Origin: Gammaproteobacteria bacterium
Lineage (GTDB): Bacteria; Pseudomonadota; Gammaproteobacteria; Enterobacterales; Psychrobiaceae
Direction: 5' to 3'
Length of the DNA: 36,443 bases
Assembly (NCBI GenBank): GCA_013214965.1
Contig: JABSRU010000042.1
Coordinates: 1-36,443 of the forward strand
In this document: in pieces, positions 8,859 through 29,362 of the stretch
Numbering within the stretch: position 1 is the first letter of the stretch
How the letters are laid out: the number at the start of each line of letters is the position of its first letter
Program-made: the position numbers and the translations under genes
The notes under the pieces: model-generated
Told to the model about the DNA's origin: nothing
Database searches by the model: none
What the model saw: only the letters and a program-made list of their open reading frames with translations

Positions 8859-9223
8859 GTTGTGCTTTACCTTTTGCTTCAGATACGTCGAAAACCGCTC
8901 AATTAATCTGCAATCTCGATTGAGCGGTTGCTGTAATAATACTACATATTAATCCTAAAAATGTGACATTAATCGACTCAAACTGTTTGCCCGCTCATCT
9001 TTGCAGCAGTTTTTGGCCGTTATCTTTAGATTATGTAATGATTCTACAATTAAGCGAGTTAGACTTTGGGCGTATTTAGATTAATCCTAAGTTGTTAGCC
9101 TTTAGGAGTACTGCTAATTAATTATTGATTTGGTCTATTGATTAATAGCTCGAAATCTTGCACGACCCTATGATGATTAAATAACCAACTATAAAAAATT
9201 ATAAATAATAACATAGGATGCCA
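8859..9223. promoter_or_regulatory. Divergent intergenic region between gnd and porin, with an inverted repeat
   Basis: 365 bases without a gene, carrying the divergent promoters of gnd and the porin. AACCGCTCAAT (8893-8903) pairs perfectly with ATTGAGCGGTT (8919-8929) around a 15-base spacer, in the probable gnd leader. The porin ribosome site AGGA is at 9215-9218. The rest is AT-rich, with no other structure I can support. Confidence 0.5.
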
Positions 9224-10396
9224 ATGATGAAAAAACCTACTTCAATGCAACTAACTGCCGTCGCTGCTTTGTCAGTTTTAGCTTTAAATGCTAGTGCCGC
9301 TGTGACCATCTATGAAACTGATACCATGTCATTCTCTACTGATGGCCTAATCAATGTATTTTACACCAACAGTGATATCGAAAAAACTGACGCCGCAGGT
9401 GCTAAAACTAGCCGTGATCAATCGCGAGTGCGGATGGGCTTTTTACCAAATAATATCGGGTTTAATTTCAGTAAACAAACCGATGATCTAAAACTTGGTA
9501 TGCGCTCTTCGTTTTGGGTATCTATTAATGATACGGATCAAAGCCGTGACGCGACATCATCAGATCTAGGCACTGGCTCTTTAATTGATGTCAGACAATT
9601 CTATGGTACGGTCAGTGGCAGTTGGGGTGAAATTTTAATCGGTAAAGATTTTGGCTTGTATAACCGTGAAAATATCATGAGCGATCAACTTTTACTCGGT
9701 TTTGGTCAAACCTCTGATTTTTTCGGTTTGGTTGATGGTGGCAATGTCTCATTTGGTAATATTAGCACCGGTTATACATACGCCTTCCCGAAAGCTCAAA
9801 TCACCTACCGCACGCCTAAAAGTGATAGCGGATTTAAGTTTGCTATTGGTTTGATGGACCCGAATAAAACGTCACCTGATTCATCTGAAGACCGTCCTCG
9901 GATTGAAGCCGAATTAGTTTACAGCACCAACATTAATGATAATCTCTCGGTTAAAGGTTGGGTTAGTGGTGTGTCTCAAACTACCGAAACGGCTGGTGTC
10001 ACACAAAACCAGTCTGGTCTTGGTTATGGACTTAATCTTGGTTTTAGTGGCGTGTCTCTCACCGCATCCGGTTTTCAATCGGAAGGACTAGGACACGTTG
10101 CCGGTCTTGACCACATTGTTACTAATGATACGGTTGAATCCGATGGTTATTTAGTCCAAGGCGCTTATGTGTTGGGCGGCAACCGAGTCGTATTAACGGT
10201 TGGTGAGTCAACGGTCGAAAAAACCGGTAGCATCCTTGATGCAACACACAAAAATACTGGTGTCGCTTACTTCCGCACCATTACGCCAGGCTTAACCGTC
10301 GTCTTTGAATATAACAAAACAGAAGCTGATGTGACTTCATCGCTTGTTGCTGAAGAAAATAATACCATTGCTATCGGTGCTGTTATCACGTTCTAA
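9224..10396 (+). CDS. Outer-membrane general porin
   Basis: A 390-residue Gram-negative porin. The signal peptide MMKKPTSMQLTAVAALSVL continues to an ALNASAA cleavage region. The mature part is a run of alternating polar/hydrophobic beta strands (WGEILIGKDFGLYNRENIM, where the porin L3 loop region would be) and ends in the outer-membrane signature phenylalanine (AIGAVITF). I place the start at ATG 9224 since AGGA at 9215-9218 is five bases upstream; the ATG at 9218 overlaps that site and cannot use it. Beyond passive diffusion its substrate is unknown. It sits directly ahead of the response regulator gene but has its own strong terminator, so it is a separate transcript; a role in alcohol uptake is only a guess from location. 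Confidence 0.85.
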   Translation: MMKKPTSMQLTAVAALSVLALNASAAVTIYETDTMSFSTDGLINVFYTNSDIEKTDAAGAKTSRDQSRVRMGFLPNNIGFNFSKQTDDLKLGMRSSFWVSINDTDQSRDATSSDLGTGSLIDVRQFYGTVSGSWGEILIGKDFGLYNRENIMSDQLLLGFGQTSDFFGLVDGGNVSFGNISTGYTYAFPKAQITYRTPKSDSGFKFAIGLMDPNKTSPDSSEDRPRIEAELVYSTNINDNLSVKGWVSGVSQTTETAGVTQNQSGLGYGLNLGFSGVSLTASGFQSEGLGHVAGLDHIVTNDTVESDGYLVQGAYVLGGNRVVLTVGESTVEKTGSILDATHKNTGVAYFRTITPGLTVVFEYNKTEADVTSSLVAEENNTIAIGAVITF

Positions 10397-10420
10397 TCAT
10401 TAGAACGGGTTAACAATCAT

Positions 10421-10453
10421 AAAAAAACGGAAGATGAGAATTTTCCGTTTTTT
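10421..10453 (+). terminator. Intrinsic terminator after the porin gene
   Basis: AAAAAACGGAA (10422-10432) pairs with TTCCGTTTTTT (10443-10453) around a 10-base loop, 25 bases after the porin stop, with the T-rich arm giving the U-tract. Confidence 0.85.
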
Positions 10454-10564
10454 CTTATACAACTAAATACAACCTAAAATACACCTAAAGGATGAGGCTA
10501 ATTTCCTTGATAAATTATCGATATGCGTTAAGTTTAATAGAGTAAGAATTCTTTAGAGTATATT

Positions 10565-11233
10565 ATGTTAAAAGTATTAGTAGCAGATGATCACCCCTTA
10601 TTTCGCGACGCTATTATCAATATTATTGGCCGTCGCTTCGAAGGTTGTGTGACTTATGAAACTCAGGATATTGATGCAACGTTAGCCTTTGTTAAAGAGC
10701 ACGACGATCTAGATTTGATTTTGCTCGATCTCAATATGCCAGGCATGTCGGGATTAAATGGCTTATTGGATTTGCGAAACGAATGCCCGACAACACCAGT
10801 GGTCGTTGTTTCTGCCGAAGAGGAAAAACAAACAATATTACAAACACTCGCCTATGGTGCAGTTGGTTTTATTGCAAAATCGTCATCAAAAGATACCATT
10901 GGTGACGCGTTGGAAAGTGTCCTTAACGGTAATGTCTATTTACCTTCTGATATCATTAGAAATACTGATAATCAACGCAGTTCCGGTGGTCGTCAACATG
11001 ATCTCAGAGTCGGTGTAGAAACTCTGTCATCGCTAACTAGGCGGCAGTTAATGGTGTTGAAATGTATGACAAAAGGTGAGGCCAATAAACAAATAGCCTA
11101 TAATCTCAACATTTCTGAAACCACCGTAAAATCGCATGTCTCCTCTATCTTGAAAAAACTAGGTGTCTATAATCGAGTGCAAGCAGTCGTTGGCTGTAGT
11201 GATATCGATTTTAACCAATATTTAAAACGTTAA
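10565..11233 (+). CDS. LuxR/NarL-family response regulator (ErbR/AgmR-like)
   Basis: 222 residues: an N-terminal receiver domain with acidic pocket VADDH, phospho-acceptor Asp55 in [10 protein letters not shown], and the switch Lys in GFIAKSSS, then a C-terminal LuxR-type HTH (about residues 155-212; [20 protein letters not shown], then [19 protein letters not shown]). Regulators of this type (ErbR/AgmR/ExaE, PedR1) control PQQ-dependent ethanol oxidation in pseudomonads. Its place beside the kinase and the alcohol genes makes the same role likely. It converges with the hybrid kinase gene, with only 16 bases between the stops, so the two are expressed separately. The ATG has a weak upstream site (AGAG). 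It is the only response regulator in the window and so is the probable output of both hybrid kinases. Confidence 0.9.
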
Positions 11234-11249
11234 TCATTGTCTCGTTGTA

Positions 11250-13814
11250 TTATTTCAATAAATAAAGCATCGAGGTTTTAAGCTTCATTGGTTTAATCGG
11301 CTTATTGAGCAATAAAATGCCAGCATCTTTTGTTGCCACTTTTAGTGATTTAGAATAATTGGCTGTAATCATAATAATAGGGAGCTCTGTTTGTTGACCT
11401 CTGGCTGCATTAATCTGTTGAGCGACGTCTAGCCCTGTCACATTGTCATCGAGATGATAATCTAAAATTAATAAATCAACCGCATCGTTAGCAACAGAAA
11501 CCTGACTCGCTAAGTCATCATAATCTAATGCGGTTACTACTTCACAATCCCAATTACTGAGCAGTATTCCCATGCCATCACAGATACTTTGGTCATTATC
11601 AACGATCCAGACTTTGCTATTTTGCAACTGAACTTGTGGCGTCACTAATGTGGCATAGTCTCTTTGAATATCCTTAATTGTTCCACCAGGTACTAACACC
11701 GAGAACACCGAGCCTTGCCCGGAAATTGATTCAACTTTAATAGGATGTTCTAAAACTTTAGATAGCTTATCCACGATAGCTAAACCAAGTCCTAAGCCAT
11801 TGGAGCATGCTTTGCTAGATCCTTTAAGCCTTTTGAACTCTTTGAAAATCTCAGTCAGTTGATTTTCGGCGATACCAACACCATTGTCTAGCACTTCAAT
11901 TCGAATGTTGTTACCCACCCTTCTCGCCCCGATTAATACCTTACCTTTGGCACCATAACGAAAGGCATTAGTTAAGAAATTTCGTAAAATTCGGGCTAAC
12001 AAAAAACTGTCAGAATGAATAACAAGTTCACTGGATACATAGCGCAACTCAATGTCAAACTGTGGCGCAATTTGGCGATATTCATGAACCATATTGGTGA
12101 GTAAGTCGCTTAGTTTAAACGAGTTTTTGTCGGCGGTTACCACGCCGGCATCTAACTTTGAAATATCCACTAAGGTACAGATTAAATTTTCAAGATCATC
12201 AAGAGAATTTGAGACACAATTGACTAAGTGACGAATTTCGTCATCTTGTAATAATTCTGACACCGAACTGGTGAATAGCTGAGCGGCATTAAGCGGTTGG
12301 AGTAAATCATGGCTGACCGCCGCCAAAAATTTAGTTTTTGAATTATTTGCTTGTTCAGCCTCACTTTTTGCGGTGATTAAATTGAGCTGCGCTTTATTAT
12401 GTTGTTCAATTTCAACTTGCAATTGACTGTTAAGCGTTTGTAATTGCGAAGTCCTTTGCTCGACTCGTATTTCTAATTCGTCGTATGATTTCTGTAACGC
12501 TTTGGCATTTTGGCGTCGCTGCGTTACATTTCGAACCAGCACAAAGAAACCAAGCACATGGCCATAAGCATCTTTATTTGGGACGTAGGATTTAAGTAAA
12601 TGAGAAATCGTGCCATCGGTATTATTCTCGTCGATTTCAAAGCTTACACTTTGCCCGGTCAGCGCTTTATTAACATAGGGTTCTAATATATTGTAATCAC
12701 CAAAAATTCGAGAATCTTCTAGTGTTACATCATTTAAATCACCGTTTTTGAGACCATACCAATCTAAATACACACGATTAGTAAACTGAAATTTCAAGTC
12801 GTTACCAATGTATGCAATCATTGCAGGTACATTATCGGTAATCAATTTTAACCAATTTTTACTCTTCTTAAGCGACTGTGCATAACGATGGCGCTGTGTA
12901 ATGTCGGTAAAGGTCTTAATTAATTCACCGCTGACTAATTGATGTTCACGAATTTCTAATACGGTGCCATTGGATAACGTTTGCAGTTCATCATTGCGCT
13001 TATTACCGGTTTTTGGTTCCAGATCTAGTTCGGTAAGATGTTGCAAATTAGAGAAATATGGACTGGATTTAAGAATTTGCGGTGATAAATGACTAATCTC
13101 AGAAAAACGTTTATTCCACACTTCAATTTGATTCGACGCACTTAACATCACCACACCTTGTGACAAGTTATCGACTAAGTTTTGTAATAAACGGGATTTT
13201 TGGGCCATTGCGCGATCAAAACGCGCTGATTCAGCAACTTTTAGGGCGGTGATGTCAGTATAAAGCATCACCCAACCACCTTCGATAGTCCGACGCTCAT
13301 TAAGTTGAAACCAACGGCCGTCATTGAGCTGATACACTGGACTGTTAACTGCATCCCCGGGATAAGCTTGACGAATGATCCCTTTTGATTTGGCTAGCTC
13401 CTTTAAATCCTTTAAGTTAACACCTGGGTCTATCGACAGTTTTGAATTACGCCAAAATTCAGAAAAATGAGAGTTTTGAAACACAATTCGACCATCGCAA
13501 TCGAGTAAAACAAAGGCATCGGAGATACTTTCGATGGCATCAGCAAAACGTTGTCTAAAGATCCCAGCTTGATGATTTGCATGTTTAAGGGCACGATTAC
13601 TTTGCTCAAGTTCTGCTAAAGTTTCGTTTAAGGCATGGGTTTTTTCCCGCACTTGATCCGCTAAATGAACTGAATGTTCAAACGCTGAATAAGGAGCATA
13701 TTGATTCCCACCACCTTCTTCAACTCGCTTAATTAACGCCTGATTAATTTTTTCTAGCTTGGCATTTTTCTCAGTCAGGTGCTTAATTTGATCCTGTAAT
13801 TGTTCAGTTAACAT
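11250..13814 (-). CDS. Soluble PAS hybrid histidine kinase with receiver domain (ErcS'/NahK-like)
   Basis: 854 residues from ATG 13814, chosen because this ATG overlaps the FIST gene stop (ATGTTAACTGA); the frame extends upstream only to a TTG at 13901 inside the FIST gene. Layout: coiled coil (residues 1-80), PAS (about 85-190), a second PAS (about 205-305), a third PAS (about 315-440), coiled coil, HisKA with His502 in AVSHDLLQPLNAAQLF, HATPase with DNGVGIAE and NGLGLGLAIVDKL, and a C-terminal receiver with Asp785 in LLILDYHLDD. No membrane segment, so it senses in the cytoplasm. The HDL-QPLNAA H-box is that of the ErcS/ErcS'/NahK group linked to ethanol oxidation in Pseudomonas. It is translationally coupled to the FIST protein, which may deliver the signal. 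Confidence 0.9.
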   Translation of the reverse strand: MLTEQLQDQIKHLTEKNAKLEKINQALIKRVEEGGGNQYAPYSAFEHSVHLADQVREKTHALNETLAELEQSNRALKHANHQAGIFRQRFADAIESISDAFVLLDCDGRIVFQNSHFSEFWRNSKLSIDPGVNLKDLKELAKSKGIIRQAYPGDAVNSPVYQLNDGRWFQLNERRTIEGGWVMLYTDITALKVAESARFDRAMAQKSRLLQNLVDNLSQGVVMLSASNQIEVWNKRFSEISHLSPQILKSSPYFSNLQHLTELDLEPKTGNKRNDELQTLSNGTVLEIREHQLVSGELIKTFTDITQRHRYAQSLKKSKNWLKLITDNVPAMIAYIGNDLKFQFTNRVYLDWYGLKNGDLNDVTLEDSRIFGDYNILEPYVNKALTGQSVSFEIDENNTDGTISHLLKSYVPNKDAYGHVLGFFVLVRNVTQRRQNAKALQKSYDELEIRVEQRTSQLQTLNSQLQVEIEQHNKAQLNLITAKSEAEQANNSKTKFLAAVSHDLLQPLNAAQLFTSSVSELLQDDEIRHLVNCVSNSLDDLENLICTLVDISKLDAGVVTADKNSFKLSDLLTNMVHEYRQIAPQFDIELRYVSSELVIHSDSFLLARILRNFLTNAFRYGAKGKVLIGARRVGNNIRIEVLDNGVGIAENQLTEIFKEFKRLKGSSKACSNGLGLGLAIVDKLSKVLEHPIKVESISGQGSVFSVLVPGGTIKDIQRDYATLVTPQVQLQNSKVWIVDNDQSICDGMGILLSNWDCEVVTALDYDDLASQVSVANDAVDLLILDYHLDDNVTGLDVAQQINAARGQQTELPIIMITANYSKSLKVATKDAGILLLNKPIKPMKLKTSMLYLLK

Positions 13815-14988
13815 TTTTGGGCTCGCCTGAAATAAAGACACCAGTAAATGTTTGATTGAGGTGAACACCGTTTTGATGTTCGCCATAGGTGTTGAAACCA
13901 ATCACCTTGTGCTTAATAAATAGCTTATTCGCCGTTGAATTCAATTGTGACTGTTCGATCTCTAGCCGTCTCAAAATACAATCACAGGCTAAGGTGATTT
14001 CTGGAGCCCCAATATCTTGATTAAATTGTGATAATTTTTTATCTAAGTTATTAAAAACATCACCTAGCTCTATTGCTGTAAGCACAATACCATTATCGAC
14101 CGCACAGTAGAAAGTTAAACTTTGATCTTGCTGATTAACCTTTTGAATTGATCGGAAAAAATAATTACCACCCACCATTACAGCCAATGGATTGATTGAA
14201 AAAACATCAGGATTTAAATCTTCCACTGCCATCCCTAATAATCGTGCATATTCAACCGCAGCGGGCTCAGCATTTAACTCGTAAACGGTGCGTGTGACCG
14301 GGTCAGACTCGGTGACCACCAATTTTTCACCGGCCTTATCAATATGGTTAATGCTTAATACTTCAAAAGGTAAATCGGTATTAACCATCACCACGACAGC
14401 CGCTTGTGAATAGAATTTTCCCTGATAGTAGACAAAGGTTTTTGTTAAATTGGTGTCATCACCCGCTGAACCACCAAAATGAGGGATGCCCCCAGAAGCG
14501 GAATTTAATATATTAAGAAACTGCTCTTCTTGAAATGATAAACCATCTAATAGAGTTAAAATGAAGGTATTGTTGGCGATTGGGGCAACCGACTTGCTTT
14601 TGCATTGTTCAGTCAATTTGTTAATGGTTGATTGAGCCGACTCAATATCAAAATTATCGATAGCACCAACCAGTTGGGCATTAATCGAGAAATGTTGCTC
14701 ACAAAAACCAATGGCGACAATACAATGTTGCTCATAACCTTGCTCAGTGATTTCACCCGACGTGGTACAACCGACCACCGGTAAATCACCAAAACTATTG
14801 GCCATTGATTGACCTAATGCGGTTAAATCGTAGATGGTTGAACAGAAGAACAACACAAAACGAATATTAGACTGGATACTATCGTGACCAAGTAATTGTG
14901 ATTTCAATTCATTGGTGGCAACAATAGGGTCAAGTGAACGAGTCACCGCGGTAATAGTTTTATTTAGTGTCATAAATGGACTGCCCAT
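13804..14988 (-). CDS. FIST-domain sensory protein
   Basis: 394 residues with an N-terminal FIST domain (about 25-220: NIRFVLFFCSTIYDLTALG, GCTTSGEITEQGY, GGSAGDD) and a C-terminal FIST_C domain (about 225-370). FIST (F-box and intracellular signal transduction) domains are predicted small-ligand sensors, often next to signal-transduction genes. There is no signal peptide or membrane helix. The gene follows the NosR-like gene by 34 bases, and its last codons overlap the kinase start by 11 bases, so the two proteins are probably made in balance and act as a sensor/kinase pair. The ligand is unknown; an alcohol- or aldehyde-related molecule would fit the neighbours. Start ATG 14988 has a weak ribosome site; ATG 14973 is an alternative. 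Confidence 0.85.
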   Translation of the reverse strand: MGSPFMTLNKTITAVTRSLDPIVATNELKSQLLGHDSIQSNIRFVLFFCSTIYDLTALGQSMANSFGDLPVVGCTTSGEITEQGYEQHCIVAIGFCEQHFSINAQLVGAIDNFDIESAQSTINKLTEQCKSKSVAPIANNTFILTLLDGLSFQEEQFLNILNSASGGIPHFGGSAGDDTNLTKTFVYYQGKFYSQAAVVVMVNTDLPFEVLSINHIDKAGEKLVVTESDPVTRTVYELNAEPAAVEYARLLGMAVEDLNPDVFSINPLAVMVGGNYFFRSIQKVNQQDQSLTFYCAVDNGIVLTAIELGDVFNNLDKKLSQFNQDIGAPEITLACDCILRRLEIEQSQLNSTANKLFIKHKVIGFNTYGEHQNGVHLNQTFTGVFISGEPKNVN

Positions 14989-15022: not shown

Positions 15023-17053
15023 TCAAACATTTTTTCTTTTTGTATACTTATTAATAACACATAGGGTTGGAGATTCAATAGTCACGACACATTCATAACA
15101 GCCAATGCATTCTTGGTAATTAACGCTACCATCATTCTTAATGGCATCTATACCACATTTTTTCTGACGACAAAGCTGACATGGTGACCCGCACTCTTTA
15201 CGCCGTGGAATCCATTTAAAGGCCGTAGAATAGCCGATAACAGCTAAACCAGCCCCTAACGGACAAAGGTAACGACAATAAAACTTATGAATCTTTAAAC
15301 TAACAGCCAGTAAGATAATTGCATACAAGACAAAAGGCCAATATCGTACAAAGAATAGAGTGATACTGGTTTTAAAAGGTTCTATCTCAGCTAGTTGTTC
15401 CGCTAACGTCAGTGAGTAAAACGAACAGCCCACCAGCAATATTAAAATCACATATTTAATTTTTTGTGCCTGATGGTGGCGAGAAATTTTATATTGCCGG
15501 ACTCGTAGCTTGACGGCGATGTAGCTAATAAACTCCTGTAATGCCCCAAAAGGACATAACCAACCACAATATAATGCCCGACCCCAGAAAAATAAACTGA
15601 CAAATACAAAACTCCATAAAATAAAGATGATCGGATCAAGTAAAAACACCTCCAACCTAAATCCTTGTTGCAACGACAATAACAAGGTATAAATATTAAC
15701 TACCGACAGCTGTCCTTGAGCATAGCCTCCAATAAAAACAAGGGTAAAACCGAGACAAAGTGGTCGTAGCCAACGGTAATTAAACAAGGTAGTGGCGGTG
15801 TATTTTATCCGAATAAAAAATGTTAATACTAGGCTTAAAAAAGCGACTAGAATGGCAATCTCAAGCGCTCTGTTTTTCCATATTCGCTGCCACAGTGGTT
15901 CGATTTTAGCCTCAATAACTGGCACAATCAGAAATAAGCTCGATGGTAATTTTAAGTTAACAGTAAACCACTGACGTTTAGTAACCATAAACGACTGCTG
16001 ATAGGTAATGCCCAAACCAACCGACATTTTTTGACTGACTTCAAAACCCGATTGTGATTTTATTCTAAAGAGTTTCAATGCCTGATAAGAAGGGACATCA
16101 CCGGCTAGATTGGGATCATAATAACTGTAAAAATCGATATCTCTAATATCGACGGGAAATTTCCCCTGACTAACCGCTAAGCGTTCGGGTACTGTTTGTG
16201 GAATAAAGTCATCCCTAATGAACGAGAATTGGCCACGACTCAATATCATTAACGCTTGCTCTCCGGGCTTTAGTTCCGTGATTAACCGTTGATATTCTTC
16301 AATGCCGAGGATGTTTCTCCCAATCAGTGGCACATTAACAAAGGCAAAATATAAATCCACTGCTGGCAGGGTCGAATCAAGATCAAATAAATAAGCCAAT
16401 AAAGGCTGGATAGTTGTTATTTTTTGCTCACTTAATTGCCAGTGAAAAATATAACCTTGTTCGATGAGTTGTTCGAAAGATAAATCCTCATCGGTATCTT
16501 CAACTAACACCGCATTTGCACGCTTGCTAAAACCATCTAACATTTTACGCGCAACGGTTAATGCTGCACTAATGATGGTATCGTTAATCACTAATACAGA
16601 TACCGTGGCTTTAGTGATGCCATCAAAATACGTTATCCCATCGTTTTGATGACGCCTGCCAATAATAAATCGTTCTTTAATCGAATGACCTTGGTATTGA
16701 CGAACGAATTCAAATAAGGGTTCTTCGCCTAAACCATGTAAGAAAATAGGCTCATGATGATTGATCACTTTTAAATCAACCAAAATTCCTTGCGGATCTA
16801 GGGCAATTAATAGATTAATTGTTTTACCAGAAAAACCAACAAAATCAGTAAAGTCATCAGATTGAAAAACATAACCTAATAGCTGACTAAGCTGATAAAC
16901 ACTGGTCACGGCTAAATTAGGATCTGAAACTTCGATTCGAGTTGCGCTGGGAAATAGAGATTTGATGTCATCAGGAATACTCGTCGCTTGATTATTACTT
17001 AGACAAGTATTTGAGAACAAAAATAAGAAGATAAAGAGGAGTATTTTGGCCAT
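15023..17053 (-). CDS. NosR/NirI-like membrane flavoprotein with polyferredoxin tail
   Basis: 676 residues: signal peptide (AKILLFIFLFLFSNTCLS), periplasmic FMN-binding domain, several membrane helices from about residue 390, two CxxxCP motifs (YCGWLCPFGALQ, YCRYLCPLGAG) and a C-terminal iron-sulfur region with CGSPCQLCRQKKC and CIGCYEC. In the FMN domain, DGITKATV (Asp144-Thr150) fits the ApbE flavinylation pattern Dxx[ST]xAT, so Thr150 should carry covalent FMN. NosR moves electrons across the membrane for nitrous oxide reductase maturation, but no nos gene is present. Here it follows the ALDH gene by 39 bases and precedes FIST and the kinase, so it may serve electron flow or redox sensing in alcohol oxidation. 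The first C-terminal cluster ends C-x4-CG rather than the usual C-x3-CP. Confidence 0.85.
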   Translation of the reverse strand: MAKILLFIFLFLFSNTCLSNNQATSIPDDIKSLFPSATRIEVSDPNLAVTSVYQLSQLLGYVFQSDDFTDFVGFSGKTINLLIALDPQGILVDLKVINHHEPIFLHGLGEEPLFEFVRQYQGHSIKERFIIGRRHQNDGITYFDGITKATVSVLVINDTIISAALTVARKMLDGFSKRANAVLVEDTDEDLSFEQLIEQGYIFHWQLSEQKITTIQPLLAYLFDLDSTLPAVDLYFAFVNVPLIGRNILGIEEYQRLITELKPGEQALMILSRGQFSFIRDDFIPQTVPERLAVSQGKFPVDIRDIDFYSYYDPNLAGDVPSYQALKLFRIKSQSGFEVSQKMSVGLGITYQQSFMVTKRQWFTVNLKLPSSLFLIVPVIEAKIEPLWQRIWKNRALEIAILVAFLSLVLTFFIRIKYTATTLFNYRWLRPLCLGFTLVFIGGYAQGQLSVVNIYTLLLSLQQGFRLEVFLLDPIIFILWSFVFVSLFFWGRALYCGWLCPFGALQEFISYIAVKLRVRQYKISRHHQAQKIKYVILILLVGCSFYSLTLAEQLAEIEPFKTSITLFFVRYWPFVLYAIILLAVSLKIHKFYCRYLCPLGAGLAVIGYSTAFKWIPRRKECGSPCQLCRQKKCGIDAIKNDGSVNYQECIGCYECVVTIESPTLCVINKYTKRKNV

Positions 17054-17085
17054 AAAAAAATCGCTTCCCTTTGCAAGGAAGCGAT
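17054..17085 (-). terminator. Terminator/attenuator between ALDH and the NosR-like gene
   Basis: On the minus strand ATCGCTTCC and GGAAGCGAT form a perfect 9-bp stem (arms 17077-17085 and 17060-17068) with an 8-base loop, followed at once by seven T and then the ATG of the NosR-like gene (17053). It begins 8 bases after the ALDH stop. The only visible ribosome site for the next gene, GGGAAG, lies in the loop and 3' arm. It should therefore reduce expression of the NosR-like/FIST/kinase genes relative to the ALDH. Confidence 0.85.
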
Positions 17086-17092
17086 ATCTCGC

Positions 17093-18613
17093 TTAGAAGA
17101 AGCCTAGTGGGCTTGTGCTATAGCTCACTAATAGATTCTTGGTTTGCTGATAATGATCCAGCATCATTTTATGTGTCTCACGACCAATGCCTGATTTCTT
17201 ATAACCACCAAATGCGGCATGTGCAGGATATAAATGGTAACAATTGGTCCAAACACGACCAGCTTGAATACCACGTCCCATGCGATACGACTTGTTCATA
17301 TCTCGGGTCCAAACACCAGCACCTAAGCCATAGGCTGTATCGTTAGCAATTTCTAATGCTTCAGCTTCGTCTTTAAAGGTAGTAACAGCGACAACAGGTC
17401 CAAAAATTTCTTCTTGGAATATTCGCATTGAGTTATCCCCCTTCAGAATAGTCGGTTGAATATAAAAACCAGTAGAGAGTGAATCAGACAGTGACTCTTT
17501 GTTACCGCCAGTTAATACTTGGGCACCTTCCTGCTGACCTATTTGTAAATAACTAATGATCTTATCGTATTGCTCCTTAGAGGCTTGAGCACCAACCATG
17601 GTCGCTGTATCTAGTGGATTACCACGTATGATTTTATCAGCTTTGGCGATAACTATTTTCATGAAATCGTCAAAGATATCTTCTTGCACTAACGCTCGTG
17701 AAGGACAAGTACAAACTTCGCCTTGATTGAAGAAACCAAGCACAAAACCTTCTGCACATTTATCAATGAATTCATCTTCCTGATCCATGATATCGCTAAA
17801 GAAGACATTAGGTGACTTACCTCCGAGTTCAATCGTTGATGGAATAAGGTTTTCTGCAGCACATTTAAGAATATGACTACCAACCGCCGTTGAACCTGTG
17901 AATGCAATTTTAGCGATTCTTGTGCTGGTTGCTAGTGCTTCACCGGCTTCTTTACCATAACCATTAACCACATTGAGCACACCTGGTGGAATTAAATCCC
18001 CTACAATCTCTAGCCACACTAATATACTTGCAGGGGTTTGTTCCGCTGGCTTTAAGATCACACAGTTACCAGCGGCCATTGCAGGTGCCAGTTTCCAAGC
18101 GGCCATTAATAACGGAAAGTTCCAAGGAATGATTTGACCAACAACCCCTAAAGGCTCATGAAAATGATAAGCAACAGTGTCATTATCAATCTCTGACATA
18201 GTGCCTTCTTGAGCACGGATACAACCGGCGTAATATCTGAAGTGATCAATCGCTAGTGGCACATCGGCAGCCAATGTTTCACGAATCGGCTTACCATTGT
18301 CCCACGTTTCTGCCACGGCTAGCTTCTCAAGGTTTTGCTCCATCGCGTCGGCAATTTTTAGCAACATATTCGAACGTTCTGTCACTGAAGTTTTACCCCA
18401 AGCGTCTTTAGCTTGATGAGCTGCATCAATCGCTAAATCGATATCTTGGCCACAAGAACGTGGAATTTCACAAAAAGCTTCACCGGTAACAGGCGTCGTA
18501 TTGGTAAAGTAATTGCCTTTAACAGGCGCTTGCCATTGACCATTAATGTAATTGCCATAACGGGATTTGAAAGAAACTGCGGCACCTTCGCTGCCTGGAC
18601 ATGCATAAATCAT
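17093..18613 (-). CDS. exaC: NAD-dependent aldehyde dehydrogenase (ExaC/AldB-type)
   Basis: 506 residues of the ALDH superfamily, oxidising the acetaldehyde-type product of the alcohol dehydrogenase to the acid in the cytoplasm. Key residues are the NAD fold [10 protein letters not shown] and FTGSTAVG, the general base Glu262 in [11 protein letters not shown], and the nucleophile Cys301 in [11 protein letters not shown], a signature shared with E. coli AldB and Pseudomonas ExaC. The C-terminal [14 protein letters not shown] is typical. Start ATG 18613 follows GAGGTG by four bases. It lies behind the exaA terminator with its own 180-base leader that contains a GCTTGG/CCAAGC dyad, so it probably has its own promoter. 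NosR-like, FIST and kinase genes follow, attenuated by a hairpin at its end. Confidence 0.93.
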
Positions 18614-18689: not shown

Positions 18690-18792
18690 ACTGTATTTAT
18701 AGTAGTCCGACTGCGAACAAAACACCTATGCTTCCTTGGCACATAAAAACTCATACTTTCGAAGGATAAAACCTATATAAAACAATATTCAT

Positions 18793-18824
18793 AAAAAAAC
18801 CGAGCGGTTAAGCTCGGTTTTTTT
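18793..18824 (-). terminator. Intrinsic terminator after the PQQ alcohol dehydrogenase gene
   Basis: CCGAGC (18800-18805) and GCTCGG (18812-18817) with a 6-base loop, extended by seven A/T pairs on the outer side. It starts 18 bases after the exaA stop in the direction of transcription and separates exaA from the ALDH gene. The symmetric A/T flanks mean that it could work both ways. Confidence 0.9.
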
Positions 18825-18841
18825 ATTTAAATCAATATGAT

Positions 18842-20605
18842 TTACTTTGGAAGTTTAAAGGTCCAGACCATGCCACCTTGGTTGAAGTTTTTAACACGTT
18901 TAGCAACTTCACCGCCCCATAATGGTACCGCACCACCCCAACCGGAAAGGACAGAGATATATTGTTCGCCACCCATTGTCCAAGTGATTGGCGAACCTAT
19001 AACACCAGAACCCGTATTAAACTTATACTTAATTTCACCGGTCTTGGCATCAAAGGCCATTAAGTAACCTTCAGGGTTACCCATAAACACAAGGTTACCC
19101 GCGGTTGTTAACACGCCTCCCCAAAGTGGCGCGTAATTCTTATAACGCCATACTTCTTTACCTGTTTTAGGGTCGATTGCACGTAGCACCCCAATATAAT
19201 CGTCATTGATTGCCTTAATGGTAAATCCGGCCCCTAAATATGCTGCCCCTTTCTTATAGGCAGTTGGTTCATTCCAAATAGACATTTCCCATTCATTCGA
19301 TGGTACATAGAACAGTTCGGTGTCTTTACTGTATGCCATTGGCATCCAGTTTTTACCCCCTAAGAAAGAAGGTGCTGATACTACTGTGCTGCCTTTTTTA
19401 CCATCCTTACTGCTCGCTGGATTACCAGGTCTGTTAGCATCATCAAAGATAGGTCGACCTTTATCATCTAACCCTTTAGCCCAAGTGATCTTATCAACAA
19501 AGGGGAAACCACGAATAAAGTCACCATTTTCACGGTTAAGGACATAGAAAAAACCATTTCGATCGGCAGTTGCCGCCGCTTTAATCGTTTTACCATTGAC
19601 TTTATAATCAAATGACACTAACTCGTTAACGCCATCATAATCCCAGCCATCATGAGGTGTTGTTTGGAAGTGCCATACTATTTTGCCATTATCAGGGTTA
19701 ATCGCTAAACGTGATGATGAAAAGTAATTATCACCAGGGCGTAAGTGAGAGTTCCAAGGTGCTGGGTTGCCGGTACCAAAGAACAACAAATCGACATCTT
19801 TGTCATAGGTACCGCCTAGCCAAGGTGCTGCGCCACCTGATTTCCATAAATCTCCGGGCCATGTTTTACCCGGTGCACCACCTGAAATACCAGCTTCTAT
19901 CTTTTTACCATTTTCCCACACATAACCCATGTGCCCTTCAACTGTTGGGCGCTCCCACACGATGCTACCTGTTAATGCATCATAGGCACGAACTTTACCG
20001 ACGATACCAAATTCACCACCAGCAACACCGGTAATGACTTTTCCTTTAACAACGATTGGTGCCGCAGTGATTGAATATCCCGCTTTATAATCTTCTACTT
20101 TCTTTTTCCAAACCACTTTACCGGTGTCTTTATTTAAAGCCACCAGCTTTGAATCTAATGTCGCAAAAATCACTAAGTTATCGTACAAAGCAACACCACG
20201 GTTAATCACGTCACAACACGGCATGATGCCATCAGGTAATCGAGCATCATATTGCCACAGCTCGTCACCCGTCATCGCATCAATAGCGTAAACCCGAGAA
20301 TAAGATCCTGTAATGTACATCACACCATCTTTGACTAACGGCTGTGATTCTTGACCACGTTGCTTTTCGCCACCTAATGAGAATCCCCATACTGGACGTA
20401 ATTCACTGACGGTCTTATCGTTAATCATTGTTAATGGGCTATAACGTTGCCCTCTAAGGCCTAGTCCGTATGAAACAACGTCGTCCGTTGTCATTTGGTC
20501 ATTGCTGATATCTTTATCGGTAACATTTGCGTTAGCCGTGGCGCTAAGTGCGAGCGCTACCATGACCGAAAGCTTAAGTAATTTAACCTTGCTGACATTA
20601 TTCAT
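18842..20605 (-). CDS. exaA: PQQ-dependent alcohol dehydrogenase, predicted lanthanide-type
   Basis: 587 residues with a signal peptide ([16 protein letters not shown]), so periplasmic. The eight-bladed propeller of quinoprotein alcohol dehydrogenases is clear: vicinal Cys130-Cys131 in [10 protein letters not shown], metal ligands Glu198 (AGGEFG) and Asn280 (GTGNPAPWN), repeated W-motifs such as [15 protein letters not shown] and [13 protein letters not shown], and no C-terminal heme domain. The catalytic Asp322 lies in [11 protein letters not shown], and Asp324 two residues on is the extra acid that coordinates lanthanides in XoxF, ExaF and PedH; calcium enzymes have Ala or Ser there. So a Ln-dependent ethanol-type dehydrogenase is predicted. 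ATG 20605 follows GAGGAA by seven bases. It is flanked upstream by the XoxJ-like and cytochrome c genes, its likely partners. The symbol is given by family; exaF or pedH may suit better. Confidence 0.93.
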
Positions 20606-20799: not shown

Positions 20800-21678
20800 C
20801 TACTCATCGCTATAGTATTGAGGTTGTTGATAAAAGGTATGATGCTTGGTAAAGATGGATTTTATTTTTCCGCTTTTAACCAGTTGACCAATAATGTCGC
20901 CGACAGCATAGCCCAGCTGACGATATTCATCTTTAACCGCCATGCCGATATCCCATTGCTGTTTGCCCAAGGTAGGGAATGCATTCTTGGCTAACTTGAA
21001 TTGATCAGACAGCATCCATTGACTAGCTGTGACTTGGCTTCTTAAGCCCATTACCGCATCAACTTGTGAGAACTTCATTGCTGCAATCGCTAATTCAACC
21101 GTGGGAAAATGATGAGTATGGTTACGCATGCGACCATTAAAAGCAGAGGTTAAATAAAAATCAGGTACCGTATCAATTTCAACACCAATGGAATGGTATT
21201 GAAACAATGCCATGGTCTCTATTTTTTCTATTTTTTGACTATTGAAGATGATTTGCCAAGACTCAGTATGATAAGGTGCAAACATATGCACCCTATCGTG
21301 AACTCGCTCACCGATGTCATCACGTAATTGTGTATACTGTCGGTCATAAGGGACACGAAGCATTAAGTCAGCAATTTTTCGCTGTAAGCTATGCCCTTTC
21401 CACAGATTATTTCTCAAGTCATCTTCAACACTTTCATCAGCAGTCATCCATTGAAAACTTAGTTTAACCTTAAGTTTATCCGCAATGGCCTGGGCAATAT
21501 CAATATCAATACCCTGTGGATGACCCTGTTTATCCAGTGATGAAAATGGCTTAAAGTCACGATAGACAGAAATGATGATACTGTTTGACTCAATAATATC
21601 ATCATAGGATCTTGCGCTTGCTGAAGAGGCTGTGATGGCGGCAAGTATTAGCCCGAGCCATTGCTTACTCTTCAACAC
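20800..21678 (-). CDS. Quinoprotein-associated periplasmic substrate-binding protein (XoxJ/MxaJ-like)
   Basis: 292 residues. A signal peptide (LGLILAAITASSASA) is followed by a family-3 type solute-binding fold: VYRDFKPFSSLDKQGHPQGI near the N-terminus, DIDIAQAIADKL, then DLMLRVPYDRQYTQL. Proteins of this family are encoded with PQQ dehydrogenases (MxaJ, XoxJ) and are thought to help activate or assemble the enzyme rather than transport. No permease or ATPase gene is nearby, which supports that. The reading frame has no ATG near its start: GTG 21678 or TTG 21675 must be used, overlapping the end of the cytochrome c gene by about 14 bases, which points to translational coupling. exaA follows 194 bases later. 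Confidence 0.8.
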   Translation of the reverse strand: MLKSKQWLGLILAAITASSASARSYDDIIESNSIIISVYRDFKPFSSLDKQGHPQGIDIDIAQAIADKLKVKLSFQWMTADESVEDDLRNNLWKGHSLQRKIADLMLRVPYDRQYTQLRDDIGERVHDRVHMFAPYHTESWQIIFNSQKIEKIETMALFQYHSIGVEIDTVPDFYLTSAFNGRMRNHTHHFPTVELAIAAMKFSQVDAVMGLRSQVTASQWMLSDQFKLAKNAFPTLGKQQWDIGMAVKDEYRQLGYAVGDIIGQLVKSGKIKSIFTKHHTFYQQPQYYSDE

Positions 21679-22105
21679 TGACCGACTCTAACCAGGTACG
21701 CACTGACCATAGTGCTTCTTGACTGAGGTAATCGGCCATTTTTGGCATGTAGACGGCACCATTTCGAACGGCACCATTTCGGACACGGTAGACATACCAC
21801 TCATCTCCGTCGAAATCGCTGGGTAACATCCGCAAGTCAGGTGCAATTCCACCAGAAATCCCTTCTAAGCCATGACAACGTGCGCAGTTTTGATTATAAG
21901 CAGATGCACCTATTCTCAGTATTTCTTTACGCAAGTCACCTGTAACATCGCGATATGGATTTTGTTCTTTCCATTCTTTACCCAACGCTGTAATCGTGGA
22001 CGTATCCATGGCTTGTGGAGTGACATCACCATGCGCTAACACACCAAATGATGAGGTCATCATCACGCCAATACAAAGACTTTTTACTAATTTAGAACTG
22101 TTCAT
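21665..22105 (-). CDS. Periplasmic cytochrome c (c550/PedF-type electron acceptor)
   Basis: 146 residues with a signal peptide ending near VLAHG and one heme site, Cys74-Ala-Arg-Cys77-His78; Met120 in VYMPKM is the likely sixth ligand. Small c-type cytochromes of this kind (ExaB, PedF) take electrons from PQQ alcohol dehydrogenases and pass them towards the terminal oxidase. The ATG follows AAGGTG. The gene overlaps the binding-protein gene by 14 bases. The stretch before the Met ligand reads RNGAVRNGAV because of a 15-bp tandem duplication (21753-21767 and 21768-21782, 14 of 15 identical). An 11-bp direct repeat and a TATTATTAT/ATAATAATA dyad lie upstream. Confidence 0.88.
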   Translation of the reverse strand: MNSSKLVKSLCIGVMMTSSFGVLAHGDVTPQAMDTSTITALGKEWKEQNPYRDVTGDLRKEILRIGASAYNQNCARCHGLEGISGGIAPDLRMLPSDFDGDEWYVYRVRNGAVRNGAVYMPKMADYLSQEALWSVRTWLESVSVEE

Positions 22106-22231: not shown

Positions 22232-24499
22232 TTAAAATTGATAGCTTAAGTTCACCGAATACGAGCGCGGCGCTGCAGGACCGACAAAGAGTTCTGAGCT
22301 AATTGTTGGGTAAATATCACCCAGCACCTCGTCGGCTTCACCGTAACCGCCAAAGGTGAAATATTGTTTATCTAATACATTATCAACTCTCAACGATAAA
22401 GATAACTCAGCGGTTATTTGGTAATTGTAAAACCAATTAATCACGCCGTGACCGGCTATTTTATCATTTTCATTGGCCTCATCACCTCGATAATATTGTG
22501 AGGAGGAAGCGGTAAATTCGGCACCCGTTTCGTTTGAATCATTGATTTGGTGATTAAACATCAACTTTAGCTGGTGTTTAGGTTGACCAGGAATTGTATC
22601 ACCGGGCATCACTTGACGATTTTCGCCCTGAGGGTTAACCGGACTAAAAGAAACAAAGGGCGATTGAAACGTGGCATCTAAATAGTTATAACTGACATTG
22701 AATTGGCTGTCTTCAAACTCAAATGCCCCGGCAAATTCAAATCCCTGACGTTGAGTTTTATCAACATTGACAAAAAAACCTTCAGAAGACTTTGATCCCG
22801 CTTGTTGAAAAATAATATCGTCGTGACTTTCACTACGATAGGCCGTTACCGTATACTTTTGGTGCTCAGTGCCAAACGAACCGCTGACTTCATGAGTTTT
22901 CACCACGACTTGCTCTAACGGTGGATCTGAGACAAAACCATTAGGTAATTTACACGGGTCGTCTTCATCGGCACAACTTAACTCCGCAGGGCTTGGAGTT
23001 CGGGATGACTCACTATAGCTCCACTTTAGATGGAAATTCTCGGTTACTGGATAAGACACCCCTATCGCGGGGTTAAAGCGGCGAAATTCATGATCACCAT
23101 CTAAAGAACCTTCACCAGAGTCGATTAAATCATTTAGCACGACCTTCGAGTAATTGTAGCGCCCGGCCAGATTAACAGTTAATTGATTAGGCCACTCGAT
23201 GGTATGAGAAAAGTAAGAAAAATGATGTTTATTACTCGCATCAAGCTTGACCATGGAGTCTAAGATAAACGAACTGATTGGCGTGACAGAGCGATCATCA
23301 GCAGCGCTGTCGTTATGTAAAATGGCCAGTTGGCTGTCACTAACAAAATCAATGTTTGCTGATTCAAGTCCCGCACCAATCATCAATGATTGCTCCGTGT
23401 TAGCCAATTGAAACTGATAGTTATATTGTAAGGTAATTCCATAGCTGTCATTCTTAACGCGGGATGTATTATAACTGCCATCAACCTCTTCTAAATCAAC
23501 CGAAATAGGCTGACTCAATAATAACTCCTCGTCATCATCACACAACACCTTTTTTTGCTTAACCATGCAAGGATCAAAGTCACTATCGTCACCATTGATA
23601 CTGGCGATAGTATTACGCCGATAGTAAATATTGCTGTCAAATGAACTGTAATTGTTGATAGTGGTGTTAGATGCTAAAGACCAAAGCGATAAATTGGTTG
23701 CGGTTTGATCTGGCTGAGTATAAATGGCGGTTGCTGACTGAGCGGTTAGTAATTCAATCGGTACGGCGCCATTACCGATTAATTGATTGTCATTAGTAAC
23801 ATACAACAGTTTTAAATTGGTGTGATCACCGCGATATTTTGCATTAACGAGTAACTGCCTGACATCACTGGGTGATGCATCACGCCAACCACCTTCTTGA
23901 TAACGATTAAAATTTAGATAATATCCCCAACGCTCATTGTGATCGCCCGATTGAATATTGAATTGGCGCTGACCAAAACTGCCGAGGCCTAACGTGACGT
24001 CATGTTGTTGATAAGAAAAGCCGTCTTTAGTGGTTAATGCTAATGCCCCGCCTAAGGTGTTTTGACCAAATATTGGATTAGAACCAGAGAACAGCGCTAT
24101 GTTATCAATGGAAGATAACGGGATAAGATCCCAATTAACCGTGTCACCGAACGGTTCATTAAATCGGCTGCCATCAAGATAAACACTAATCCCTTGGGGT
24201 AAGCCCAACAATGGCGAGGCTGTAAATCCTCGATATTGAACATCTGGTTGAAAAGGATTGTTTTGAACATCATTAATACGAACGCTAGCCAGTGATAACG
24301 CCAACTGTTGACTTAATGTTTTGACATTTGAGCGTTCAATCGCATTGGCATCGATGGTTTGTACTGTGCCGAGCAAATAGGATTGGTTATTGTGCTGCCC
24401 AATCGGGCTTTGACCTATCACCGCGATACGTTCTACTTCTTGAGCGATGCCTTGAAAAGAAATGGCTACTGTCACTATCATCCCAACAAATCTTTTCAT
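22232..24499 (-). CDS. TonB-dependent outer-membrane receptor
   Basis: 755 residues from ATG 24499, which follows GGGGA by 8 bases and opens a signal peptide (MKRFVGMIVTVAISFQGIAQ); the frame extends 64 codons further upstream without a signal sequence. A TonB-box-like VERIAVIG is followed by the plug domain (VQYRGFTASPLLGLPQGISV, VNWDLIPLSSIDNI, GQNTLGGALAL) and a 22-strand-type barrel ending in SVNLSYQF with the terminal Phe. It imports a scarce ligand with energy from TonB. As first gene in the row ahead of cytochrome c, XoxJ-like and exaA, a lanthanide chelate (compare LutH in Methylobacterium) or PQQ (compare PqqU) is a plausible cargo, but the sequence does not decide between these and unrelated ligands. 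Confidence 0.9.
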   Translation of the reverse strand: MKRFVGMIVTVAISFQGIAQEVERIAVIGQSPIGQHNNQSYLLGTVQTIDANAIERSNVKTLSQQLALSLASVRINDVQNNPFQPDVQYRGFTASPLLGLPQGISVYLDGSRFNEPFGDTVNWDLIPLSSIDNIALFSGSNPIFGQNTLGGALALTTKDGFSYQQHDVTLGLGSFGQRQFNIQSGDHNERWGYYLNFNRYQEGGWRDASPSDVRQLLVNAKYRGDHTNLKLLYVTNDNQLIGNGAVPIELLTAQSATAIYTQPDQTATNLSLWSLASNTTINNYSSFDSNIYYRRNTIASINGDDSDFDPCMVKQKKVLCDDDEELLLSQPISVDLEEVDGSYNTSRVKNDSYGITLQYNYQFQLANTEQSLMIGAGLESANIDFVSDSQLAILHNDSAADDRSVTPISSFILDSMVKLDASNKHHFSYFSHTIEWPNQLTVNLAGRYNYSKVVLNDLIDSGEGSLDGDHEFRRFNPAIGVSYPVTENFHLKWSYSESSRTPSPAELSCADEDDPCKLPNGFVSDPPLEQVVVKTHEVSGSFGTEHQKYTVTAYRSESHDDIIFQQAGSKSSEGFFVNVDKTQRQGFEFAGAFEFEDSQFNVSYNYLDATFQSPFVSFSPVNPQGENRQVMPGDTIPGQPKHQLKLMFNHQINDSNETGAEFTASSSQYYRGDEANENDKIAGHGVINWFYNYQITAELSLSLRVDNVLDKQYFTFGGYGEADEVLGDIYPTISSELFVGPAAPRSYSVNLSYQF

Positions 24500-24705
24500 A
24501 CTAATATCCCCAACAAATATATTACAAGCACCATGACAGTAATATATTGTTTTTACCATGTTTATAGAATGAAATAGGTCTAAAGGTGGAGTCGTACAAA
24601 CCCGAATTAGGTCAAAATGATGAAAACTATAATTATCCATTATTTTACTAGTGTTCAAACCCATCGAAATATACAATATGTTTTTTATCAAGAATTTGTA
24701 TCATC

Positions 24706-28900: not shown

Positions 28901-29362
28901 TTCTTTTTCAACAATAGATTGCGGCGTAAATATATCAATGCTATTCACCATCGCCTGTAATTGCAGGGCAAAATACGGCAATGTGCCCACCACTGAGATT
29001 AATGTGACGGTGGCTGCTAACCCTTGAGACTTACCATAGCGAGATGCCACAAAATCAGCCAACGAGGTTATTTTAAGCTCGCTGGTAATTCTTAAAATTC
29101 GATTAAGCAAAGGGAAAAAGAACATAAACAATAAGATTGGCGCAATATAGACAGGAAGGTATGACCACAAGCTATTAGCTGACATCCCAACGGTGCCTAA
29201 AAAACTCCATGACGAACAATAGACCGCCAACGATAAGCCATAAATAGTATTACGGGCACCTTGTTTGAAAATGCCGAAATGTTTATCACCAAGCCAAGCC
29301 ACTAAAAAGAGCGCCCCAATATAACCAATCGAAATTATCGGTAATAAACTGCTGTGATCCAT
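25937..29362 (-). CDS. Sodium:solute symporter-fused hybrid histidine kinase (ErcS/CbrA-like)
   Basis: 1141 residues. Residues 1-500 are a 12-13 helix SSS-type transporter domain (YGLSLAVYCSSWSFLGTVGM, SLADFVASRYG). A linker leads to a PAS domain (about 615-735), HisKA with His788 in AAIGHDLMQPLNAARLF, HATPase (DQGKGIPDE, SGLGLGLAIVDRI) and a receiver with Asp1070 in IMLADFHLDD. Kinases of this build (CbrA, ErcS) couple nutrient entry to gene control; ErcS belongs to the Pseudomonas ethanol oxidation network. ATG 29362 follows AAGGAA. From the H-box to the end it closely resembles the soluble kinase at 11250-13814, so the two look like paralogous inputs. No response regulator gene adjoins it. 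Confidence 0.93.
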   Translation of the reverse strand: MDHSSLLPIISIGYIGALFLVAWLGDKHFGIFKQGARNTIYGLSLAVYCSSWSFLGTVGMSANSLWSYLPVYIAPILLFMFFFPLLNRILRITSELKITSLADFVASRYGKSQGLAATVTLISVVGTLPYFALQLQAMVNSIDIFTPQSIVEKEQIGLFIALLLAIFTILFGTRKLDATEHHPGLMLAIALESIIKLFALLAIGVAVTWGYFDGFSDIWQRAEQRDLLAIDNSFSHWGGIFAQTLVMMASFLCMPRQFHNMMVECDDKQQLTNSRWIFPCYLVLAGLFVLPIALAGKLVLDPSISADTYVIALPLSLGYDFLALFGFLGAISAATGMVIVAALTISIMVSNEWVMPILLRSGYIEQHSFNRFSSNILNIRRIIIFVLLLLGWLFYVELSSQDSLANLGQIAFGVFTQILPGLVGAVYWKHGNRKGVFIGLAAGLFIWFYALTKPMTGHIDIFSSLDWIKDMQPSYGWILLSLLVNSLCYIWGSFMFRSGVRERMQAGIFVDRLNHKKAIKSAAISQQELLMLASRFVGHDKAYASFIEYSPRFISHNNRNKIATSGLITHTELLLSSVIGTSSASLVMHSVVEGRDMPLDDLVSLIDEASSKILVSQKLMQGAIEHASEGMSVIDEHYNLMAWNQRYVELFDYPKGFLEVGKPIADLIEFNAQRGYCGPGNIKEHVDRRMDRVIKGLPYHFERTRPDGKVIKMQGNPMPDGGFVTTFSDITQYRQVERELIRSKELLEARVSARTIELSMANDRLIDAKEKVEQVNSSKTRFMAAIGHDLMQPLNAARLFTASLLQQDQTDPQVKETVRHIADSLKASGQLLADLLDISRLESGAIEVNKSNFQISQLLDNFSAEFGAMSADYTVSFKVVNSSIAINSDINLLRRIIQNYLTNAFRYGSGAKVLLGCRRVGENLRIEVWDQGKGIPDEKVNDIFLEFKRLENSSVYDRSGLGLGLAIVDRISKVLGHKLALKSEVDRGSVFSVLVPIVRNFKPQVVTPIANIGNSQLAGIKVLCIDNEEKILVGLDLLLKRWQCDVYLAKNLEQAIAIVDDLEGLPDIMLADFHLDDNESGLDAMDALREKYQFQIPGVLITADTRKALVEEVEGKDYRYMAKMVRPAALRAVISSLVTKK

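Follow-up and report, generated by a model that had tools for sequence, protein, structure and literature searches.

A NosR-like membrane flavo/iron-sulphur protein, distinct from NosR, within a PQQ alcohol dehydrogenase gene cluster

The window analysed here is a single stretch of DNA of 36,443 nucleotides from a gammaproteobacterium of the family Psychrobiaceae, and positions refer to it unless another locus is named. The genes and features around a NosR-like gene on its minus strand are listed below, with profile scores given against the profile cut-offs.

9218..10396, plus strand: porin-like protein at the cluster edge (by eye; no Pfam match; recurs in 9 of 24 loci)
10565..11233, plus strand: LuxR-type response regulator in the AgmR/ErbR position (profile scan, position)
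11250..13901, minus strand: NahK/ErcS'/PedS1-type hybrid histidine kinase (NF041832, 497 against 400; NF041831, 955, under 1500)
13804..14988, minus strand: NosP, of the FIST-domain nitric-oxide sensor family (NF041558, 540.9 against 450)
15023..17053, minus strand: NosR-like membrane flavo/iron-sulphur protein of the exa-type clade, 676 amino acids (reading frame, profile match, trees)
15059..15193, minus strand: ferredoxin-type cysteines C621, C625, C628, C633 and C649, C652, C655, C665 (sequence; kept in 24 of 24 exa-clade proteins)
15260..15277, minus strand: CRYLCP, second CX3CP site, residues 593–598 (C593 to P598; sequence, Pfam)
15551..15568, minus strand: CGWLCP, first CX3CP site, residues 496–501 (C496 to P501; sequence, Pfam)
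16604..16624, minus strand: candidate flavinylation motif DGITKAT, residues 144–150 (D144 to T150), with Lys where nosZ-linked NosR has Gly
17060..17085, minus strand: terminator-like hairpin followed by T6, between exaC and the NosR-like start (hairpin scan)
17093..18613, minus strand: ExaC acetaldehyde dehydrogenase (NF050026, 962 against 900)
18791..18826, minus strand: terminator-like hairpin of 15 pairs after exaA (hairpin scan)
18842..20605, minus strand: ExaA/PedE-type PQQ alcohol dehydrogenase (TIGR03075, 781.6 against 480)
20800..21678, minus strand: PedG-like periplasmic binding protein, SBP_bac_3 (label from position and from recurring next to PedF; profiles stay below cut-off)
21665..22105, minus strand: PedF cytochrome c550 (TIGR04494, 198.5 against 122)

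Read along the minus strand, the gene order is PedF cytochrome c550, PedG-like protein, ExaA, ExaC, NosR-like protein, NosP and NahK-type kinase. ExaC is the upstream neighbour of the NosR-like gene, with ExaA next but one, and NosP and the kinase lie downstream. A PQQ alcohol dehydrogenase (PQQ-ADH), PedF, an aldehyde dehydrogenase, the NosP/PedS1 pair and a LuxR regulator are found together, as expected of a ped/exa cluster. The NosP-NahK pair is known from such clusters, according to the available text of a review (PMC12997753), and the FIST/kinase pair of the window matches it, since its FIST protein exceeds the NosP cut-off and its kinase is of the NahK type. The original prediction, made from the window sequence, had described this protein as FIST-type, which the profile score of 540.9 (cut-off 450) upholds and refines to NosP. 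It had also seen no nos, nir or rnf gene in view, and none was recognised in the window (Pfam on 20 of the 21 larger reading frames, with 34729–36114 read by eye).

Beside pedF lies a TonB-dependent receptor (22232–24691), relatives of which occur near several clusters. Its match to PqqU is weak (81 bits against a cut-off of 1200), and a role in PQQ or metal uptake is possible. Large sensor kinases are also encoded near the cluster, at 30072–33332 and 25937–29362 (Reg_prop propeller type and membrane-PAS-kinase-receiver type).

The NosR-like reading frame is open on the minus strand throughout 15023–17053 and translates to 676 residues. Its top NCBIfam match is NosR, spanning residues 19–665; Pfam Fer4_5 (CX3CP; PF12801) is matched over its threshold (55.7 against 22), and FMN_bind falls below its own (17.4 against 22). 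The protein opens with a signal-like start and an FMN-type domain, which a further long stretch outside the membrane follows; hydropathy gives several membrane helices, and there are two CX3CP sites and eight ferredoxin-type cysteines. The cysteines of both kinds are conserved in all 24 exa-clade proteins, the window protein included. A structural model built from 26 sequences was poor (mean pLDDT 62), and only its FMN-domain match is used here: Foldseek paired it with RnfG, a covalent-FMN fold, at an E value of 6.6e-5. A PDB sequence search with the window protein returned only a weak RnfG match (E 0.38). An FMN domain, identified by motif and fold, is therefore combined with two CX3CP sites and a ferredoxin-type C-terminus in one membrane protein. 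Reading frame, profiles and neighbours all agree with the original prediction of such a NosR-like protein between the aldehyde dehydrogenase and the FIST/kinase genes. The gene product is a membrane flavin/iron-sulphur protein that is related to, yet distinct from, NosR.

The genome of the window (4.25 Mb in 144 contigs, 95.7% complete) has its own nos cluster on another contig, where profiles identified NosR, NosZ and NosD; the labels NosF and NosY were given by position to an ABC ATPase and a permease. The NosR homologue of this cluster is 35–37% identical to the window protein, and scores 1102 bits with the NosR equivalog NF046105 (cut-off 1000 bits) against 582 for the window copy. The original prediction had named as a counter-indication a nos cluster elsewhere in the genome without its own nosR; the one found has its own. 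No nosZDFY genes accompany the window gene, and NosZ was matched at none of the 24 exa-clade loci. Clade-I nosZ was absent from 10 of the 23 exa-clade genomes searched (the genome of L039 left out), and the protein is in this respect independent of nosZ.

In a tree of 70 proteins, a split with SH-aLRT support of 100 separates all 33 nosZ-linked NosRs from every one of the 26 rows that have exa-type neighbours, which in L043 and L044 are only distant ExaA/ExaC paralogues. The nosZ/exa split holds in a second tree of 78 rows, which takes in all non-nosZ rows longer than 500 amino acids and 22 nosZ-linked rows drawn randomly. On the nosZ side of this tree are four rows (L251, L253, L255 and L257) that I take to be NirI, a NosR relative beside nirS. 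They belong to the same family as the window protein, and one of them (L251) has an R in the flavinylation motif, but they differ from it in having no exa gene nearby; three of the four have a distant radical-SAM (PqqE-like) match. At L253, apbE overlaps the NosR-like gene. Exa-linked and unlinked rows are interleaved in the trees, and the ExaA link may have arisen once or more than once; several origins have been reported (Meheust et al. 2021, PMC8238504, available text). L042, L043 and L044 (around 9968–12050) form a separate NosR-like subgroup with 38–40% identity and a TSAT motif, thus with S before A-T, and have at most distant ExaA/ExaC paralogues nearby.

The candidate flavinylation motif of the window protein, DGITKAT, does not match the DxxSGAT motif of NosR. 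All 24 exa-clade proteins have [ST][KR]AT, against the [ST]GAT typical of nosZ-linked NosRs, with K in 6 and R in 18 at the residue preceding A-T. This residue is also K in five outliers of the class sample described below (L076, L077, L078, L095 and L101) and in 12 of 13 further rows of the phylum sample, the other having S, whereas among 83 nosZ-linked rows it is G in 80 and S in 1, the motif not being found in 2. In the samples used here the motif tells exa-linked and nosZ-linked rows apart, except for a few rows of either kind that have S. Two single rows stand apart: L251, taken for NirI, has SRAT, so a basic residue here is not unique to the exa side, and the NosR-like protein of L037 (Vibrio fluminensis) has NGVSRAT, with Asn replacing the otherwise constant Asp.

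The motif Thr is present in all 24 exa-clade proteins, and Thr150 is invariant across the 26-sequence alignment. In a divergent subclade of eight rows, a Pfam-confirmed apbE overlaps the NosR-like gene in seven (L200–L203 and L205–L207; not L101). Together, the invariant Thr150 and the overlapping apbE suggest that window-type proteins may carry covalent FMN; the K or R, where the established ApbE motif has Gly, counts against this. ApbE is present somewhere in all 34 genomes searched, eight of which have a single match (G005, G170, G153, G353, G311, G082, G390 and G396). The window's genome has two ApbE, both outside the window, one of them adjoining an NqrF-like gene (by eye), and an ApbE dedicated to the K/R motif was not found there. 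In the exa clade the next labelled gene after the NosR-like gene is NosP or PqqB and not apbE, and an immediately following apbE is likewise missing in L101, in L095 and, except for L201, in the unlinked rows examined.

Conservation of the neighbourhood was assessed at 24 exa-clade loci (the window, G005, L021–L041 and L045), which were collected by NosR-like homology alone and of which 14 are from Colwellia. Neighbours in the relatives were labelled by BLASTP against the window proteins and a few reference reading frames of L010 and L013. Labels confirmed by profiles over cut-off are NosZ, NosD, PqqB, PqqC, PqqE and the PQQ-ADH-system transporter components TIGR03863, TIGR03866 and TIGR03864, while NosF, NosY, PqqF, PedC and PedG were named from their position and similarity; the binding protein labelled PedD-type is that of TIGR03863, and need not be the Pseudomonas PedD.

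Among labelled genes, ExaC lies directly upstream of the NosR-like gene at 23 of the 24 loci, and NosP and NahK are both within the examined stretch at 23. The lack of conservation in relatives that the original prediction had named as evidence against it is thus not what is observed. The next labelled gene downstream is NosP at 18 loci and PqqB at 6. Cytochrome c550 (PedF) is beside the NosR-like gene, within the examined stretch, at 16 loci, and an ExaA of at least 70% identity lies in the stretch at 17, L025 having only a 39% paralogue. Where a close ExaA is missing from the stretch, it is found elsewhere in the genome; the exaA of L023 (Colwellia maritima) is broken into two reading frames, yet the NosR-like gene and its neighbours there are open. 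The cassette ExaC-NosR-like-NosP-NahK occurs in Alteromonadales, Vibrio and Shewanella.

In G005 the NosR-like gene shares its contig with ExaA and pqq genes, and the whole of that contig gave no match to ExaC, NosP or NahK. Ped genes accompany the NosR-like gene in G666 and G198, with NosP/NahK not found in the examined stretch, and six loci of the divergent subclade lie in exaA/ped clusters, again with no NosP/NahK in the examined stretch. NosP was found in none of 13 examined phylum-sample rows linked to neither nos nor nir. The link to PQQ-ADH is therefore broader than that to NosP/NahK, since G005, G666 and G198 have ped genes or ExaA with no NosP nearby.

In a class sample of 369 genomes, a NosR-family match at E ≤ 1e-100 was found in 40, of which 6 were assigned to the exa side and 34 to the nosZ side by the 70-protein tree (G267 by NosZ linkage). 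PQQ-ADH (E ≤ 1e-150) occurs in 60 of the 369 genomes. Each of the 6 exa-side genomes has it, compared with 5 of the 34 nosZ-side ones (p 1.2e-4); in a Fisher test of the 6 against the remaining 363 genomes, p is 1.5e-5. These p values ignore the relatedness of the genomes. NosP (E ≤ 1e-60) is present in 16 of the 369, and in 4 of the 6. Only 6 of the 60 PQQ-ADH genomes carry the NosR-like protein at E ≤ 1e-100, and the protein is therefore accessory. In one nosZ-side genome, G273, a NosR-like fragment linked to ExaA also lies at the end of a contig; it was left out of these counts.

A phylum sample of 398 genomes gave 74 match rows in 66 genomes at E ≤ 1e-90. Of the 69 rows examined, 50 have nosZ linkage, 4 are those taken for NirI, 2 lie at the ends of contigs and 13 belong to none of these groups. 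These 13, with the window, G002 and G170, make up 16 non-nos, non-nir rows; ExaA or PedF (at least 40% identity, within about 9 kb) is found at 9 of them against none of the 50 nosZ-linked rows (p 3e-7, likewise disregarding relatedness). The other 7 of the 16 are unlinked to exa/ped genes, which counts against a dedicated PQQ-ADH role. PQQ-ADH was present in all 28 genomes of NosR-like relatives tested, 27 over cut-off and one with a split gene. PedF c550 was over cut-off in all 34 genomes tested, 30 of which have an exa-side NosR-like gene (the G273 fragment included), the other 4 being PQQ-ADH genomes with no such gene at the threshold. Since c550 is present in all 34, the NosR-like protein is no replacement for it in these genomes.

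The original prediction had placed the gene in an alcohol-oxidation operon. Membership in an alcohol-oxidation cluster is borne out, but a single operon is too simple, as terminator-like hairpins follow both exaA and exaC. The exaC hairpin leads into a run of six T ahead of the NosR-like ATG, and AGGGAAG, an apparent Shine-Dalgarno sequence, lies in the hairpin's 3' arm. The scan alone is weak evidence, with 13 terminator-like sites in the region against 8.5 expected (sd 2.8). Among relatives, a stem of at least 8 pairs lies within 70 bases after exaC at 15 of the 23 loci with ExaC (9 with a T-run), and a stem with a T-run follows exaA at 9 of 16; no such stem was found within 70 bases after the NosR-like gene at any of 23 loci, this 70-base scan overrunning into the next gene at short gaps and missing later hairpins (seen by eye, e.g. 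in L030). Mean folding z-scores are −2.8 after exaC, −3.4 after exaA and +0.3 after the NosR-like gene. Because terminator-like hairpins precede it, the layout suggests that the NosR-like gene may be expressed at a lower level than ExaA and ExaC, and jointly with NosP-NahK at loci where that pair comes next.

The conserved anatomy, clade, motif signature and neighbourhood, the co-occurrence with PQQ-ADH, the co-presence of c550 and the overlapping apbE argue for a dedicated redox protein of the PQQ-ADH system. On balance, these comparisons make it probable, if by no means assured, that the protein is a dedicated transmembrane electron carrier of the exa/ped system, forming its own group beside NosR and auxiliary to c550; it would likely provide an extra electron path beside the usual cytochrome. 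ApbE would attach FMN to Thr150 in the periplasm, and electrons would pass between the FMN, the [4Fe-4S] clusters of the two CX3CP sites at the membrane and the cytoplasmic ferredoxin-like domain, so that the carrier would join the ExaA/PedF branch in the periplasm to the quinone pool or to a partner in the cytoplasm. Given the terminators preceding its gene, this auxiliary path alongside c550 would probably be less abundant than ExaA and ExaC. For such a carrier I lean slightly, by analogy, to outward over inward flow, in which quinol or a cytoplasmic reductant would poise or re-activate the periplasmic branch, as NosR is proposed to supply NosZ, and the protein would not be the main exit for electrons from alcohol oxidation.

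An alternative is that the flavoprotein is the main inward exit, taking electrons from ExaA (or PedF) to the transport chain in the job of cytochrome c (Meheust et al. 2021), a proposal published on the basis of gene clusters (PMC8238504, available text). It agrees with the ExaA linkage seen in several subclades. PQQ enzymes of acetic acid bacteria reduce ubiquinone, which also speaks for it. However, low FMN and Fe-S potentials would make the inward step uphill, c550 sits beside the NosR-like gene at 16 of the 24 exa-clade loci, and the terminators suggest expression below that of exaA. With PedF in 34 of 34 genomes, 30 of them having an exa-side NosR-like gene or fragment, substitution for cytochrome c is rejected for the genomes tested. 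Its presence throughout and the terminators disfavour a main exit, leaving room for a minor one, and I regard this alternative as possible but rather unlikely.

The original prediction also offered a redox sensor for the kinase, in which the protein would read the quinone or periplasmic redox state and would control exa expression by signalling to NosP/NahK and the LuxR regulator. The frequent NosP and NahK neighbours (NosP next in 18 of 24 loci, both present in 23), and the scan of 23 loci, in which no terminator was found behind the NosR-like gene, would suit such a role, as would the reported action of NosR in regulating nosZ transcription (PMC7660919, available text). As a general role, it does not fit G005, G666, G198 and the six divergent loci, where NosP/NahK are not beside the gene, or the 13 phylum rows lacking NosP. 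The available text of the ped review likewise describes NosP/PedS1 homologues and none of NosR, FMN, ferredoxin, flavoprotein or 4Fe-4S (PMC12997753). With relatives in exaA/ped clusters that have no NosP/NahK nearby, kinase sensing as the core function is set aside as quite unlikely. That the gene is a spare nosR for nitrous oxide reduction, landed in an alcohol cluster, would account for NosR being its best family match, but is extremely improbable and was rejected given the own nos cluster with its 1102-bit NosR, the 10 of 23 exa-clade genomes with no clade-I nosZ, and the separate clade and motif.

The favoured carrier can be set beside known systems. It shares with NosR (NF046105) the alignment layout, the FMN-type domain, the second non-membrane stretch, the two CX3CP sites and the ferredoxin-type C-terminus, and differs in its score (582 against a cut-off of 1000), lack of nosZ linkage, [ST][KR]AT motif and separate clade. 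MauN is another NapH-like protein beside a quinoprotein, a parallel for which a literature search gave no paper. The related NosR and PceC are considered to hand electrons outward to periplasmic reductases (PMC12052999, PMC7660919, available text). PceC, which belongs to organohalide respiration, is a membrane protein carrying covalent FMN and is considered a link between the quinol pool and a periplasmic redox enzyme (PMC12052999). PceC differs in that its partner is a reductase. PceC is not known to have a ferredoxin-type C-terminus. The Pseudomonas ped cluster has PedF, PQQ-ADH, an aldehyde dehydrogenase, NosP/PedS1, AgmR and ABC transporter genes in common with the clusters described here; it differs in that NosR, FMN, ferredoxin, flavoprotein and 4Fe-4S go unmentioned in the available text of the review (PMC12997753).

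Flavinylated NapH-like proteins have been associated with ExaA in 172 genomes by bioinformatics, with a proposed role (Meheust 2021, PMC8238504, available text), and the window protein would be filed with them: it is a PF12801 protein (55.7 against 22) in a cluster with ExaA, its FMN domain assigned by motif and fold only. The difference lies in function, the protein being proposed there as a counterpart of cytochrome c, where here c550 is present in all 34 genomes. In the available text of a 2024 flavinylation paper, NapH, alcohol, ethanol and PQQ were not found (PMC11334425). A broader reading, which I consider unlikely, is that of a further NosR-family class serving periplasmic quinoproteins, in which outward reductant (or quinone-pool reading) would poise or re-activate a PQQ dehydrogenase with its own cytochrome c, co-transcription with NosP-NahK in Alteromonadales, Vibrio and Shewanella would tie together NO, quinone redox state and alcohol oxidation, and the basic residue of the ApbE motif would mark an altered flavinylation site.

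The original prediction knew of no described role for such a protein with PQQ dehydrogenases. No experimental role for a NosR-like protein of ExaA clusters was indeed found in the literature searched, but the general association with ExaA, with a proposed role, has been in print since 2021 (PMC8238504, available text). Not found in the literature searched, and new here, are the clade and motif that set the protein apart from NosR, the c550 co-presence, the ExaC-NosR-like-NosP-NahK cassette, the apbE overlap in the divergent subclade and the terminator layout. According to the available text of the review (PMC12997753), it is not known to which terminal acceptor PedF passes electrons in P. putida, and the NosR-like protein may bear on how electrons leave PedF and on what else an exa/ped cluster needs. 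As a flavo/iron-sulphur protein of the membrane, it accompanies PQQ alcohol dehydrogenases and is distinct from NosR. It also calls for caution in annotation, in that a NosR-family match does not imply N2O respiration.

The window's genome encodes a second PQQ-ADH on another contig (G000:C122, locus L131, 9158–10987), only 37% identical to the ExaA of the window. Near it lie a gene resembling S-formylglutathione hydrolase and one for a small protein of cupredoxin type, both judged by eye, along with homologues of two genes of the ped transporter system, and the locus looks like a methanol-type cluster.
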